Shown here: piece after piece, positions 6,813 to 12,301 of the stretch
Layout: every line of letters begins with the position of its first letter
Numbering within the stretch: position 1 is the first letter of the stretch
Assembly (NCBI RefSeq): GCF_000271485.2
Contig: NZ_AKVN02000001.1
Coordinates: 3,993,501-4,057,500, forward strand
Source of the DNA: Pelosinus fermentans DSM 17108
Lineage (GTDB): Bacteria > Bacillota > Negativicutes > DSM-13327
Length of the DNA stretch: 64,000 nt
Direction: 5' to 3'
Made by a program: the position numbers and the translations under genes
The notes under the pieces: generated by a model
Seen by the model: only the letters and a program-made list of their open reading frames with translations
The model's database searches: none
What the model was told of the DNA's origin: nothing

Positions 6813-7050
6813 AATTGACACCTACCTATTCTTTAAAATATCCTAAATAAAAACATACTTGCCTGCCTTTAAATTACCCTAGAGTAAAGAGATATCCAGT
6901 ATGCCAGCATGAATGTCCTGCTTCCTATATATTACCCATCAGAAAGAATATAGCTGGTCTTATCTTCATGTCCTCTCATCCAGAAACCTCTTAAACTATT
7001 ACTTAGCCATAATGAATCCAAATTCCTGCAGGCGCAATATTACTGTACTT

Positions 7051-8556
7051 TTACAATACAAAATACTTATCTATAAAGTAATTTTTGCTCATCGGCAGCC
7101 ACTCTGGAATGTCGTAAAATTTATTTTTAATCGGTCGCAGAATTTGTTCACGATAAACATCATACTTAAAATCTTTGCCTTCTACTAAGTAAAATGATAT
7201 ACCATCTAACTTTATTTCTTCAATAGTAACCTCTTGAAAATAAGGAGTGTATAAAGCTTTATCCGCCGGTTTAGTACGGAAAATAACTATATTCTTCCCG
7301 TTAAAATTCCTGAAATCAGTGTACATATCATCATGTCGTGCGTGATACGATCCTTTGCCAAAGACACTTACATATTCCTGCGTATAATAATACAGCACTG
7401 CTGATTTTGAATAACTTTCAGTGGCAAAAATGTAATCCTTAGAATATGGTTTTAGAATATTAGCCATTGCCTGTGGTTTAATATAGAATAAACTTTGCTG
7501 ATAAATCCTGCTTTGCGCTATTTGAGCAGGGGGTGAAATCAAAATATAAGATAACAAGATATTGAAAGTAAAAGTAAAAACAGCCACAAGCAATGTGGAT
7601 TTCTGGAAAGTGACTTCACTAAAATGAAAGAAAGTCAAAATGAAGAGAAATGGTAAGAACGCCAGCGGCCAATGAAGTCCAATTGGCTTTGTAAATGACA
7701 ATATCGCAAATATGCCTATTGGAACTATAAACAAGACAGAATAATATTGTCTGAGGTGGTCCGAACCAGTAATTCTCATTGCTGTTTTCGAGTCTCGGAG
7801 CAAGTAATAAATCACAACAGGCGTTAGCAAAAGCAGCAGTTGTCCTAAATAAGATAAGAAATATAAAGGCTTCAAGGCGCCCATATCTTGATTCCGATTA
7901 TATACGTTAAACATAATATTCGACCAACCATGAGTATAATTGTAGTATACGTTTAGTAGACCAAATGGCATGGCACAAATAGCCATTATGGAAAGTGCTC
8001 TAATCCCCCATCGATTACGTTGATAAATCAGCACATATACTACATAAGCAATTACGAGAACTGCTGAAAAATATTTTGATAAGAAAGCTCCGCCAAGAAA
8101 GACACCTGCTGCAATTAAGTAAAGTGGCTTATTCTTGTGCAGACCATGATAAAAACATGCAGACGAAAGGGAGACAAATAACATAAGTGGAGTGTCAGTT
8201 GTAACTAAAATATTAGCCATATTAAGTGGTGATACCAAGAATAAGATTACTGTCCAACTAGCAAGGTTCTTATTTTGGCTCTGTAACAAGATATAAATGG
8301 CAGCACCAATGACATAAGGAAAAATAAGCGGTGGAAGGCGAAGTGCATATTCACTAGAGCTAAATTTTAAAATGACGGCAAGCAGCCAGCCGACCATTGG
8401 CGGATGATCATAATAACCAAAGTCGAGGAATGTTCCCCACGTGTAAAAATAAGCCTCATCACCAGTAAGCGGAATCCCATAGGCTAGAAGTGATTTCAGA
8501 AGAAATGTCACGCCTATTGTAATATATAACAGTTTTTTACTATCCAAATTTTTCAT
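7051..8556 (-). CDS. GT39/ArnT-like membrane glycosyltransferase
   Basis: A 501-residue polytopic membrane protein. Its first loop contains GDEAYFYTWG and DFGYYDHPPMVGW, the acidic and His-Pro motifs of the PMT_2/ArnT family. These enzymes move a sugar from a polyprenyl-phosphate carrier to a lipid or protein on the outer face of the inner membrane. About ten hydrophobic segments follow, then a soluble C-terminal domain from about residue 375. ArnT itself adds 4-amino-arabinose to lipid A; here the donor and acceptor are unknown. Its promoter carries the triple TTA box shared with the adjacent OmpR-type two-component system, a layout reminiscent of PmrAB-ArnT. The first 13 codons are duplicated at 9069-9107. 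Confidence 0.88.
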   Translation of the reverse strand: MKNLDSKKLLYITIGVTFLLKSLLAYGIPLTGDEAYFYTWGTFLDFGYYDHPPMVGWLLAVILKFSSSEYALRLPPLIFPYVIGAAIYILLQSQNKNLASWTVILFLVSPLNMANILVTTDTPLMLFVSLSSACFYHGLHKNKPLYLIAAGVFLGGAFLSKYFSAVLVIAYVVYVLIYQRNRWGIRALSIMAICAMPFGLLNVYYNYTHGWSNIMFNVYNRNQDMGALKPLYFLSYLGQLLLLLTPVVIYYLLRDSKTAMRITGSDHLRQYYSVLFIVPIGIFAILSFTKPIGLHWPLAFLPFLFILTFFHFSEVTFQKSTLLVAVFTFTFNILLSYILISPPAQIAQSRIYQQSLFYIKPQAMANILKPYSKDYIFATESYSKSAVLYYYTQEYVSVFGKGSYHARHDDMYTDFRNFNGKNIVIFRTKPADKALYTPYFQEVTIEEIKLDGISFYLVEGKDFKYDVYREQILRPIKNKFYDIPEWLPMSKNYFIDKYFVL

Positions 8557-8784
8557 CCCTTCTTAACCAATTAGTACCACCTCCATAGTAACCTACTATT
8601 ATTACAGGACTCTTAAACAACGATTAGAATTGGATTAAAAAGTTCAAATTTCTCTTCCTATCTGTAAAAAAATGTTCTTATATACTTAAGAGGTTTGATT
8701 AAACGATAAGGGATAGTATTCATGCCGACGAAAGATACAACTATATTGATTGTAATTGAGACCAGTGGACGTCAGCCTCTGATT
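8520..8784. repeat. Direct repeat copy A (promoter plus both flanking gene starts)
   Basis: This segment holds the first codons of the GT39 gene, the intergenic promoter and the first codons of a response regulator. It is repeated in the same orientation at 9071-9403 with only scattered base changes, apart from a 66-base deletion in copy A between a repeated GTA. The two copies are about 550 bp apart and flank a small gene. Confidence 0.92.
8585..8637 (-). promoter_or_regulatory. Triple TTA box A and -10 element of the GT39 gene
   Basis: TTA triplets in A/T-rich half sites start at 8613, 8624 and 8635, exactly 11 bp apart (forward core CTTAAAC, ATTAGAA, ATTAAAA). On the reverse strand a TACTAT -10-like hexamer (8585-8590) follows at a fixed distance, and the same spacing recurs at box C. 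Direct repeats with an 11-bp period next to the -35 region are what OmpR-family activators such as PmrA bind. Confidence 0.7.
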
Positions 8785-8793
8785 ATTTATTAG
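8722..8793 (+). pseudogene. Truncated duplicate of the response regulator start
   Basis: An ATG at 8722 opens the same eleven codons as the intact regulator at 9275 (MPTKDTTILIV). It then jumps to codon 34 of that gene (IET.GRQ) and stops at 8791 after 23 codons. The missing 22 codons include the acidic pocket of the receiver domain. The joint is at a GTA found at both ends of the deleted stretch. No function is expected for the peptide. Confidence 0.85.
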
Positions 8794-8986
8794 GAAAAAA
8801 TTGAATTGACGGTTTTTCATAAGAGCAGACATGAACCCATTTTCCATCACAAATCAACTCGATTTTTCCGAGTTGCCTGCCTTCCCAAATCCAGGACTTG
8901 ATGACTTCTGCTACAATTATATTGGTTTTTTTCTGCGACAAGGTTGGATCCGCTACTACTGGGATACCATGAATGATTGTACACAT
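8783..8986 (-). CDS. Small protein of unknown function, 67 residues
   Basis: An open frame of 67 codons with a perfect AGGAGG eight bases before its ATG, hence probably translated. It begins MCTIIHGIPVVADPTLSQKK and continues with a mixed alpha/beta-looking, moderately charged sequence with three cysteines and no membrane segment. I do not recognise a family. It lies exactly between the two copies of the duplicated promoter segment, and its stop codon overlaps the end of copy A. It may have come in with, or been trapped by, the duplication. Confidence 0.6.
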   Translation of the reverse strand: MCTIIHGIPVVADPTLSQKKTNIIVAEVIKSWIWEGRQLGKIELICDGKWVHVCSYEKPSIQFFPNK

Positions 8987-9038
8987 TATATAAGCCTCCT
9001 ATCACTTATTTGCTAAAGAGTTGAATGATTCATTTCTA

Positions 9039-9107
9039 TTAATGGATATATTTTGCTAACCAAACTCTGGTAATATATAAAAGTTCTTTACTATCCAAAT
9101 TTTTCAT
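9039..9107 (-). pseudogene. Duplicate fragment of the GT39 gene start
   Basis: Reverse-strand ATG at 9107 opens MKNLDSKELLYIT, matching the first 13 codons of the GT39 gene (MKNLDSKKLLYIT). The match then ends and a stop follows after 22 codons. It is the left edge of repeat copy B and is not a working gene. Confidence 0.82.
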
Positions 9108-9403
9108 CCTTTGTTAACAATTAGTACTACCTCCATAGTAACCTACTATTATTACAGGACTCTTAAACAAAGATTAGAATTGGATTAAAAAGTTCAAATT
9201 TCTCTTCCTATCTGTACAAAAAAATGTTCTTATATACTTATAGATATTTGATTAAACAATAAGGGGTAGTATTCATGCCGACGAAAGATACAACTATATT
9301 GATTGTAGAAGATGAGTGGAAAATCGCCCGATTTATACAAATGGAACTGGAACACGAAGGCTTTAAAACCGTAATTGAGACCAACGGGCGTCAGGCTCTG
9401 GAT
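9071..9403. repeat. Direct repeat copy B
   Basis: Second copy of the segment at 8520-8784. Here the right end continues into the intact response regulator while the left end is a dead fragment of the GT39 start; copy A has the opposite arrangement. The ancestral order was therefore probably GT39 start, box, regulator start as one divergent promoter, later duplicated in tandem. Confidence 0.92.
9163..9187. promoter_or_regulatory. Triple TTA box B upstream of the two-component operon
   Basis: TTA triplets start at 9163, 9174 and 9185, the same 11-bp array as box A with one base changed. It lies about 90 bp upstream of the response regulator ATG and may provide autoregulation. On its reverse side only a dead GT39 fragment remains. 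Confidence 0.6.
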
Positions 9404-9967
9404 CGAATTGTCCAAGAAAACTTTGACCTCATTTTATTAGATATTATGCTGCCGGAGATGTCAGGCATAGAAGTCTGCCGCCGGGTTCGAGAGATTTCTC
9501 AAATACCGATCATCATGATTACCGCCAAAGGTGCAATTGAAGATAGAGTCACGGGGCTGGATATTGGTGCAGATGACTATCTAACCAAACCATTTGCAAT
9601 ACAAGAACTTCTGGCCAGAATCCGTGCAGCTCTGCGTAAAAATAAGGCGAGTAAGTGCCAGCTCGACCAAGGAAATTTACGCGTAAAAAATCTCGTTTTA
9701 TTTTCAAAGCGTTTTGAAGCACAGGTCAACGGGCAGCCTATCGAATTGACTAAAAAAGAATATGGTCTCCTCGAATATTTGGTACGTAATAAGCACATTG
9801 TATTAGATCGCGAACACATTCTACAGGATGTCTGGGGTTATGAATATGCAGGAAATACAAATGTAGTGGATGTTTATATTCGCTATTTGCGCAGCAAACT
9901 TGATGAACAGTTCGGGGAAAAATATATACATACAGTTAGGGGAATCGGCTATGTGGTCAAAGATTAA
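9275..9967 (+). CDS. OmpR/PhoB-family response regulator
   Basis: A 230-residue regulator with a receiver domain at 1-120 and an OmpR-type winged helix at about 130-228. The phospho-acceptor is D56 in LILLDIMLPEMSG. The acidic pair E12/D13 (LIVEDE), the switch Thr (MITAKG) and the KPF motif (YLTKPFAIQELLARI) are all present. The DNA-binding part has GQPIELTKKEYGLLEYL and the terminal VDVYIRYLRSKLDE...VRGIGYVV signature. It probably binds the 11-bp-period TTA boxes at 8613, 9163 and 12247. It overlaps the kinase gene by 17 bp, a tight operon. Copy A of the duplicated segment holds a truncated second start of this gene. Confidence 0.93.
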   Translation: MPTKDTTILIVEDEWKIARFIQMELEHEGFKTVIETNGRQALDRIVQENFDLILLDIMLPEMSGIEVCRRVREISQIPIIMITAKGAIEDRVTGLDIGADDYLTKPFAIQELLARIRAALRKNKASKCQLDQGNLRVKNLVLFSKRFEAQVNGQPIELTKKEYGLLEYLVRNKHIVLDREHILQDVWGYEYAGNTNVVDVYIRYLRSKLDEQFGEKYIHTVRGIGYVVKD

Positions 9968-11372
9968 AAAATTCACCATCTCAATGTCGATTCAATTGAC
10001 AATATTCTACATTGGTATTTTGTTCTGCATTCTGTTCATCATGAGCTTTTTTACTGTCTGGGGGGTACAATATATCTTGTTTATGCAGGCAGAAAATGAC
10101 ATTATTGCCAGTGCCAATAACATTACCAGCTATCTAGCAGCAGGTCATCCTATAGATCAACAATTATTAAGTGAAAATTTTCTTGAATCCGATATTATTC
10201 TCAGGATCTATGACGAACAAAGCAACCTAATAATAGATAATGCTCCTTATACGATTAGCACAAACAAACCTCAGATGAGAGAGCAAGAAGGCATTCAGCT
10301 TATTGAAAGTACTTTACTAAGAGAAATTCCACGCCATCCCTACGAGGTAAACCATACTCATTTTTATTACTTACAGCAATTGGTGCAACTAAATGGACAT
10401 TCATACCAATTGCATTTCATGAAAATAATCTCGGAGAAAAATGCCGTTCTAAAGACCTTATCCAATATTATGAAAGCAAGCAACCTCATCGCCCTATTTT
10501 TTATCATTACGACTGGTATCTTTATCATTCGCAATATTCTGCGCCCCATTCGAAATATAACAGCAATTGCTAAAGAGATTGAGATTAATGACTTAAGCAA
10601 ACGTATCCATGTTAAAGATAGCAATGATGAACTCCATCATTTGGCAAGAACATTTAATCATATGTTAGATCGGCTTCAGACGGGATTTGAACAACAGCAG
10701 CAGTTTGTCGCAGATGCTTCCCATGAACTGCGTACTCCCATCACGGTTATTAGCGGTTATGCCAATATGCTGGATCGTTGGGGTAAACAAGACGAATTTG
10801 CATTACAGGAAGGAATTAGCGCAATAAACTCGGAAGCAGCTAATATGTATGAGCTTATTGAAAAGTTGCTCTTCTTGGCGCGAACGGATCAGAGTAATCA
10901 GATGATCAATAAAGCTAACCTTGATATGCAAAGCCTAATTGAAGAAATAGTACAGGAAACTCAGCTTATCGCTCCAAACCATCAAATATTTCTAACTAAA
11001 AATGATTCTGCCATTATTTATGCAGATTCTGCTTCTATCAAGCAGATGTTACGAATTTTCATTGAAAACAGTATTAAATACACACCTATCGGCGGTACAA
11101 TTCGTATCGCTTCACACCAAGTAGATACTTACTTGCATATTACTATTCAAGATACTGGAATTGGCATACCGAAAGAAGAGCAATCTAAAGTTTTTGACCG
11201 TTTTTACCGGGTTGATGCATCCCGTTCAAAACTAACAGGTGGAGCCGGTCTCGGCCTTTCTATTGCACAATGCATTGCTCAGCAGCATGATATTGAGATT
11301 CATTTGACCAGTATACTAAGCGAAGGTACTACAATTACACTGCAGTTTCCCCTACCTTCCAAAAAGCAATGA
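9951..11372 (+). CDS. Sensor histidine kinase with HAMP domain
   Basis: The start ATG at 9951 (MWSKIKKFTISMS) lies inside the end of the regulator gene, with AGGGGA nine bases upstream. Upstream in-frame codons would give an implausible 27-residue extension. The protein has 473 residues. Membrane helices lie at about 16-39 and 176-195, with a 135-residue extracytoplasmic sensor between them. A HAMP domain follows at about 196-250, then the HisKA box (ASHELRTP, His258), then N (IFIENSIKYTP), G1 (DTGIGIP), F (FDRFYRVD) and G2 (GAGLGLSI) motifs of the ATPase. It phosphorylates the regulator encoded just upstream. The signal is unknown; the ArnT-like neighbour suggests envelope stress, cationic peptides or metal. 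Confidence 0.92.
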   Translation: MWSKIKKFTISMSIQLTIFYIGILFCILFIMSFFTVWGVQYILFMQAENDIIASANNITSYLAAGHPIDQQLLSENFLESDIILRIYDEQSNLIIDNAPYTISTNKPQMREQEGIQLIESTLLREIPRHPYEVNHTHFYYLQQLVQLNGHSYQLHFMKIISEKNAVLKTLSNIMKASNLIALFFIITTGIFIIRNILRPIRNITAIAKEIEINDLSKRIHVKDSNDELHHLARTFNHMLDRLQTGFEQQQQFVADASHELRTPITVISGYANMLDRWGKQDEFALQEGISAINSEAANMYELIEKLLFLARTDQSNQMINKANLDMQSLIEEIVQETQLIAPNHQIFLTKNDSAIIYADSASIKQMLRIFIENSIKYTPIGGTIRIASHQVDTYLHITIQDTGIGIPKEEQSKVFDRFYRVDASRSKLTGGAGLGLSIAQCIAQQHDIEIHLTSILSEGTTITLQFPLPSKKQ

Positions 11373-11504: not shown

Positions 11505-12095
11505 TCAAGTAAATATTGGGTCACTGTCCTCTTTAGGGGGAGCGTTTGAATCTGCGATACTCTGATTAATCGTTTTAATTCCAGCATCTGTTGCTTTTCT
11601 CACAGCTTCCTTCACTGGGGATTTCTTACCAATGGAGGTATAGGGGAGCCATGTAGTGTTAGAGCCACGACCTGTAACATCTTCAATTAAAGTATATTTC
11701 TGGGTAATGGCATTATATAAACGAACTCTAAGTGTAGCCACCGTTTTGATATTTTTATAATATAATACATCACGATAATCGGATTTTACAGGAAGAATTT
11801 CCACAGTAAGTAAGGAATTGGTTCCTAATTCTTTAGCCAAACTGTTTAAATCTTGCTGATCTTCTAGTTGTAGTTTTTCCAGCGTATTCTCCCTTAAATC
11901 CTTACTTACAATTTCGCCACCTGGCATGTGTTTGTCTAACTTCGCAGTAATTTCACTTTTCAGTTCACTTCCATACGATTCTTTAGAACTATCCATTACT
12001 ATAAACCTTATATCTTCGGGGTTTGTAGAAGATGCATGAACTGGGAATGTCAGCATAACAAACATTGTTACAAGTATACACAAACTCTTATACAT
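11505..12095 (-). CDS. Secreted protein of unknown function, probable two-component target
   Basis: The ATG at 12095 is chosen because AAGGAG lies nine bases upstream. An earlier ATG at 12119 would put that site inside the gene and lengthen the signal peptide. The 196-residue product starts with a clear signal peptide (MYKSLCILVTMFVMLTFPVHA). The mature part includes LGTNSLLTVEILPV, VRLYNAITQKYTLIEDVTGRGSN-like strands and a final helix AVRKATDAGIKTINQSIA. This alternation faintly recalls CsgG/LpoB-type periplasmic folds, but I cannot assign a family. The promoter at 12219-12271 carries the triple TTA box, so the adjacent two-component system probably controls it. Confidence 0.75.
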   Translation of the reverse strand: MYKSLCILVTMFVMLTFPVHASSTNPEDIRFIVMDSSKESYGSELKSEITAKLDKHMPGGEIVSKDLRENTLEKLQLEDQQDLNSLAKELGTNSLLTVEILPVKSDYRDVLYYKNIKTVATLRVRLYNAITQKYTLIEDVTGRGSNTTWLPYTSIGKKSPVKEAVRKATDAGIKTINQSIADSNAPPKEDSDPIFT

Positions 12096-12218
12096 GTATA
12101 TTATCTCCTTTATTGCCATCTTTAAATTATTTTGATTATCATTACAATTGCTCTGAAGCTCAATTATGGGCCCTAAAGTAATTTTATTTATTCTCTCCTC
12201 TCAGTTAATCTTACCATT

Positions 12219-12271
12219 ATAATAGCCCTCCATTATTACACGATCATTAGACTAAGATTAGAATTAGATTA
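12219..12271 (-). promoter_or_regulatory. Triple TTA box C and -10 element of the secreted-protein gene
   Basis: TTA triplets start at 12247, 12258 and 12269, again exactly 11 bp apart (ATTAGAC, ATTAGAA, ATTAAAA). On the reverse strand TATTAT (12219-12224) follows, with 23 bp from the first TTA to the hexamer, as at box A. A conserved GTAATAAT between box and -10 is shared with box A. The surrounding sequence otherwise differs, so this is not simply another copy of the duplicated segment. Confidence 0.7.
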
Positions 12272-12301
12272 AAAATGATAGCGCGTTCAGATCGTAAAAA
12301 T

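Follow-up and report, generated by a model that had tools for sequence, protein, structure and literature searches.

Divergent promoters tie two genes together, and the undoing of such a tie is rarely seen in sequence. In Pelosinus fermentans DSM 17108, two direct copies of one promoter region lie side by side, one still attached to a membrane glycosyltransferase gene of the GT39/PMT_2 type (hereafter GT39), the other to the gene of an OmpR-family response regulator, and each copy carries a stump of the other gene. Were the two genes once served by a single promoter, and did its duplication make their control independent? Here, the reciprocal stumps show the undoing of the tie, and sister genomes bracket the promoter duplication in time. 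The window, by which we mean the whole stretch of 64,000 nucleotides analyzed, corresponds to positions G000:C1:3993501–4057500 of the host genome (G000, 5.03 Mb); coordinates without a prefix refer to this window. The main comparisons were with G003, a sister species of the same genus with a one-contig genome, and with the more distant G001, in which the regulator gene is ≈92% identical. The features are listed in Table 1.

Table 1. Features of the duplicated locus, in window coordinates.
Feature	Position	Strand	Basis
GT39/PMT_2-type membrane glycosyltransferase, full length, living gene of copy A	7051–8556	-	ORF; Pfam PMT_2 2e-23
Copy A: GT39 codons 1–13, promoter, regulator codons 1–11 and 34–42	8519–8781	none	repeat comparison
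Leftward -10-like element of copy A (TACTAT on minus strand), faces GT39	8585–8590	-	position -28
Operator A, four half-sites, 11-bp period	8601–8640	+	pattern search and class boxes
Rightward -10-like element of copy A (TATACT), faces regulator stump only	8681–8686	+	candidate: consensus and conservation only
Regulator stump A, 23 codons, 66-base in-frame deletion between 8754 and 8755	8722–8793	+	same deletion in G003
Small gene, 67 aa, RBS AGGAGG	8783–8986	-	conserved unnamed class family
GT39 stub B, 22 codons, retains start codon and start region	9039–9107	-	also in G003
Copy B of duplicated segment	9070–9400	none	repeat comparison
Leftward -10-like element of copy B, faces stub B and small gene	9135–9140	-	position -28
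Operator B, four half-sites, 11-bp period	9151–9190	+	pattern search and class boxes
Rightward -10-like element of copy B (TATACT), faces living regulator	9233–9238	+	candidate only
OmpR-family response regulator, living gene of copy B	9275–9967	+	Pfam Response_reg 2e-30, Trans_reg_C 1e-28
66 bases present in copy B, missing from copy A	9308–9373	+	copy alignment
Sensor histidine kinase	9951–11372	+	Pfam HAMP, HisKA, HATPase_c
204-aa protein, signal-like N-terminus, presumed third regulator target	11505–12119	-	box and -10 in same geometry
Third intact operator, before gene 11505–12119	12235–12274	+	pattern search

The repeated segment and its genes

A first-pass annotation of this DNA had described two direct copies of a segment comprising the start of GT39, an operator box and the start of the regulator, with a 23-codon regulator stump in copy A, a 22-codon GT39 stump in copy B and 66 bases missing from the former between two GTA triplets. 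All of this was borne out almost to the base. Each copy is made up of GT39 codons 1–13 on the minus strand, the promoter between the genes and, on the plus strand, the opening codons of the regulator. When the two copies were aligned, the promoter between the two start codons gave 156 matches and 8 mismatches over 164 aligned bases (95.1% identity), while GT39 codons 1–13 were identical at 36 of 38 bases, regulator codons 1–11 at 33 of 33 and regulator codons 34–42 at 23 of 27. Two repeat blocks, of 126 and 66 nt, that keep a fixed register at 90–94% identity cannot be a product of chance. In copy A, GT39 runs for 501 codons and the regulator frame stops after 23 (MPTKDTTILIVIETSGRQPLIIY); in copy B, the regulator runs for 230 codons and the GT39 frame stops after 22 (MKNLDSKELLYITRVWLAKYIH). 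The deletion in copy A is in frame and comprises exactly 66 bases; in copy B, a GTA directly precedes this stretch and another GTA forms its end. The arrangement has the features of a partial tandem duplication, in that the copies are direct and share one locus, where each outer gene is complete only on its own flank. The copies do not directly abut, being separated by 288 bp (8782–9069) that hold the small gene.

The small gene differs at only three positions between G000 and G003, all of them synonymous, and we therefore consider it a living gene. Its protein is 100% identical in G003 and 89% identical in G001, and belongs to a family present in 42 of 250 genomes of the class, with up to six copies each. 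Searches with this protein gave no Pfam, NCBIfam or convincing PDB match, and a single-sequence AlphaFold model (pLDDT 53) was too poor for a structure search. A second member of the family (63% identical; L115:5351–5629) lies just before a gene that, by eye, resembles the LPS-transport gene LptA/OstA. A transposon-type insertion of the small gene was considered and rejected: no inverted repeats flank 8782–9069, there is no transposase ORF between the copies, and the repeated segment measures 331 bp.

GT39 retains the acidic TGDEA motif near its start and has homologues with 65–67% identity in four other genomes. It is rare, being found in only 6 of 380 class genomes and in two of the eight within the genus; the two copies in the genus are 67% identical, as distant from each other as from the copies in other families. 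In the other five carriers, it opens a gene run that continues with UDP-sugar dehydrogenase, epimerase, GT2 and GtrA. The four partner genes had no DNA-level match in this genome, where the best relative of the epimerase is only 28% identical. With these four usual successors not found, the surviving GT39 appears by these tests to be an orphan. On its left side, positions 6943–7030 match, with 80% identity, the beginning of a gene for a HAD-type phosphatase in G003 (L108:7390–7483); the gene itself is missing here, which indicates that the left flank of GT39 was rearranged as well. When genome contigs were searched with the regulator, the matches were generic members of the OmpR family and included no sister strain; the nearest with a name (64%) came from Anaerovibrio, a genus of the class Negativicutes, which fits the mention of Sporomusaceae in the first-pass annotation.

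Operators, promoters and predicted control

The box, described in the first-pass annotation as triple, is present in both copies, but consists of four half-sites with an 11-bp period rather than three units. Read toward GT39, it has the form TTTAAT-N5-TCTAAT-N5-TTTAAG-N5-TGTAAT, followed after ten bases by TACTAT. Perfect matches to the box occur exactly three times in the 5.03-Mb genome, at 8613, 9163 and 12247, all of them in this locus, while the reversed control pattern has none in the whole genome. The third box has the same -10 spacing, lies before an unrelated gene just downstream of the kinase gene and is found in G001 and G003 as well; the 204-aa protein encoded by that gene matched no Pfam family above cut-off. 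A regulatory RNA at the locus was considered and rejected, as an Rfam search there returned no regulatory RNA family.

A generic promoter and terminator scan gave no more promoter matches than shuffled sequences, and we therefore relied on comparative spacing. Of 24 non-redundant boxes from the class, 19 have a leftward -10-like hexamer at the fixed position -28. Such constant geometry speaks well for leftward promoters that are probably real and regulated through the box. On the rightward side, a TATACT-like element is found at a nearly fixed distance upstream of most regulator genes.

It had been proposed that the duplication uncoupled a shared divergent promoter into two independent ones. 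Sharing in cis has indeed ended, but independence does not follow, since the box and the leftward -10 element of either copy are intact. With both operators intact, GT39 and the regulator are presumably still co-regulated by this same regulator, which probably controls GT39, and the small gene most likely answers to it too; the shared DNA was split, presumably not the control. Nor have two one-way promoters resulted. GT39 was kept at copy A and the regulator at copy B, but copy B still faces both ways. The leftward promoter of copy A would now serve GT39, and the rightward promoter of copy B the regulator and kinase, while the leftward promoter of copy B would read the GT39 stub and then the small gene. 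Rightward transcription from copy A would cover only the stump, running toward the small gene from the opposite side.

Sister genomes and the origin of the arrangement

In G003, stump A of the regulator is present and lacks the same 66 bases (L108, about 10065–10136); it is followed by the small gene, the GT39 stub and the regulator. Upstream of stump A, however, the sequence is unrelated, and the copy A promoter and this GT39 are not found at that place. A sister genome with unrelated sequence in place of one copy had been named as an observation that would refute the duplication; since stump A is still present, we interpret the G003 sequence as a later loss and not as a refutation. The GT39 of G003, which lies elsewhere, is a different gene (67% identical) with its own box, near a second regulator–kinase pair. 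This pair (L109:8928–11022; regulator 83% identical) is close to the GT39 operon, whose promoter has the same box. In G000 and G001, the kinase gene that follows the regulator is intact. In G003 it is broken (L108:11220–11956), about 680 bases matching window positions 10603–11277 being missing, and only short reading frames remain; this species may rely on its second regulator–kinase pair.

In G001, a single promoter copy lies between the small gene and the regulator, with neither stump nor stub. This is the single-copy state by which the event was expected to be dated, although the divergent partner is the small gene instead of GT39; the small gene may thus be the older partner of the promoter. 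In the repeat, 23 informative sites unite both G000 copies and G003 B against G001, which places the duplication after the split from G001. The features found in both G000 and G003 place it before the split between these two, and the 66-base deletion would fall in the same interval. The grouping within the repeat is mixed, three sites joining G000 A with G003 B and one joining the two B copies, and some exchange between copies is therefore likely.

That GT39 and the regulator formerly shared a promoter is suggested by the GT39 start codon, which is kept opposite the regulator in both G000 and G003; promoter B would thus once have faced GT39. None of 380 class genomes examined had an intact single-copy ancestor with the order GT39–promoter–regulator. 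Elsewhere in the class, other genera have divergent genes of envelope type across the same box from this regulator, namely BacA, a methyltransferase, a VTT/DedA protein, and a small membrane protein followed by a phosphatase-like gene. A divergent partner thus seems to be the normal state of this regulator in the class, which supports a former use of the GT39 start that lies opposite it.

We consider it probable that an ancestral GT39–promoter–regulator segment was duplicated in place, leaving reciprocal stumps and retaining what is predicted to be control by the same regulator. The doubling, in direct orientation, would have involved the DNA from GT39 codon 13 to about regulator codon 42 and would have occurred in the common ancestor of the G000 species and G003, with the 288-bp stretch holding the small gene coming to lie between the copies. 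The left copy would have kept the whole of GT39 and the right copy the whole regulator; subsequently, the regulator stump of copy A would have lost its 66 bases. Two junctions have to be accounted for, one between regulator codon ≈42 and the stop codon of the small gene, the other between the 5' flank of the small gene and GT39 codon 13. A tandem duplication that captured the small-gene stretch at its junction would explain both in one event. In its simplest form, such a duplication is at odds with the outgroup, where the small gene is already the divergent partner, and an added insertion or recombination is needed.

Recombination could also have produced the whole arrangement, if DNA carrying GT39, promoter and regulator became joined beside a resident small gene, making the two promoter copies a xenologous pair. 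The single-copy order of small gene, promoter and regulator in G001, the rarity of GT39 together with the distance between its two copies in the genus, and its lack of operon partners all fit this history, which explains the small gene beside the outgroup promoter better than tandem duplication does. However, the 95% identity of the promoter copies and the 23 sites that set them apart from G001 would demand a donor as close as a sister species, and GT39 codons 1–13 at copy B would still call for an extra step. We regard such a join as rather unlikely, though worth serious consideration; in-place duplication of a GT39-facing promoter is tentatively preferred. A related and equally tentative suggestion is that the operator of this regulator acts as a docking place at which the divergent envelope gene has been exchanged repeatedly across the class. 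The present locus might then have been caught midway through an exchange, copying of the promoter having allowed the old and new partners, the small gene and GT39, to coexist, each with its own copy.

The stumps might instead be small functional frames, such as leader peptides or regulatory RNAs, and not remnants at all. Start codons and ribosome-binding regions are kept in both, and stump A is in frame in G000 and G003. Against this, stump A in G003 has no upstream operator, stub B diverges between G000 and G003 after codon 12 through frame-changing indels, and the stumps have no counterpart in Rfam; we find a function for them very improbable. An assembly duplication or chimera, which the near-identity of the copies might bring to mind, is hardly credible at all, because the copies differ at 8 of 164 promoter sites as well as by the 66-base deletion, and the order of stump, small gene, stub and regulator recurs in the separate one-contig genome of G003. 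As regards the small gene, the two stumps and copy B, the comparison with G003 excludes an assembly artifact, the other potential refutation that had been named; the copy A promoter and GT39 rest on the one G000 assembly.

Comparison with known systems

The closest parallel to the operator is the box of the PmrA/PmrB (BasR/BasS) regulon of enterobacteria, in which the verified half-sites CTTAAT and CCTAAG are five base pairs apart, TTTAAG having been published as well (PMC3973317). The two systems share an OmpR-family regulator, the geometry of the half-sites and, in relatives, target enzymes of envelope type. As in a PmrA box, hexamer half-sites are arranged head to tail, 5 bp apart, and are followed by a -10 element, but there are four of them instead of two, and the class of bacteria is a different one. 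Against the PmrA/BasR equivalog NCBIfam NF007928, the regulator scored 162.9 bits, far below the cut-off of 330. The operator thus resembles a PmrA box in how it would work, with binding by the regulator predicted, and does not make the regulator a member of that family. The locus thereby reveals a putative PmrA-like regulon of small size and sharp definition, whose operator is conserved over many genera of the class.

GT39 resembles the ArnT-like and GT39-like glycosyltransferases that use lipid-linked sugars in its PMT_2 domain and early TGDEA motif, and its relatives run with the UDP-sugar dehydrogenase, epimerase, GT2 and GtrA genes. It differs in that these partners were not found in this genome and in having no PDB sequence relative. 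A test for an ArnT aminoarabinose transferase gave only the general PMT_2 domain, with no NCBIfam family, ArnT included, up to E 0.1.

A literature search returned nothing on this locus or on divergent promoters split by duplication. Like other bacterial divergent promoters, the region studied here combines an operator and outward promoters toward two genes in one intergenic region. It differs from them in that the region is duplicated, each copy keeping one of the original genes and a stump of the other. The event is a small local rearrangement and not a new system; it belongs to a known kind of change, in which a divergent regulatory region is partly duplicated and the truncated genes decay.
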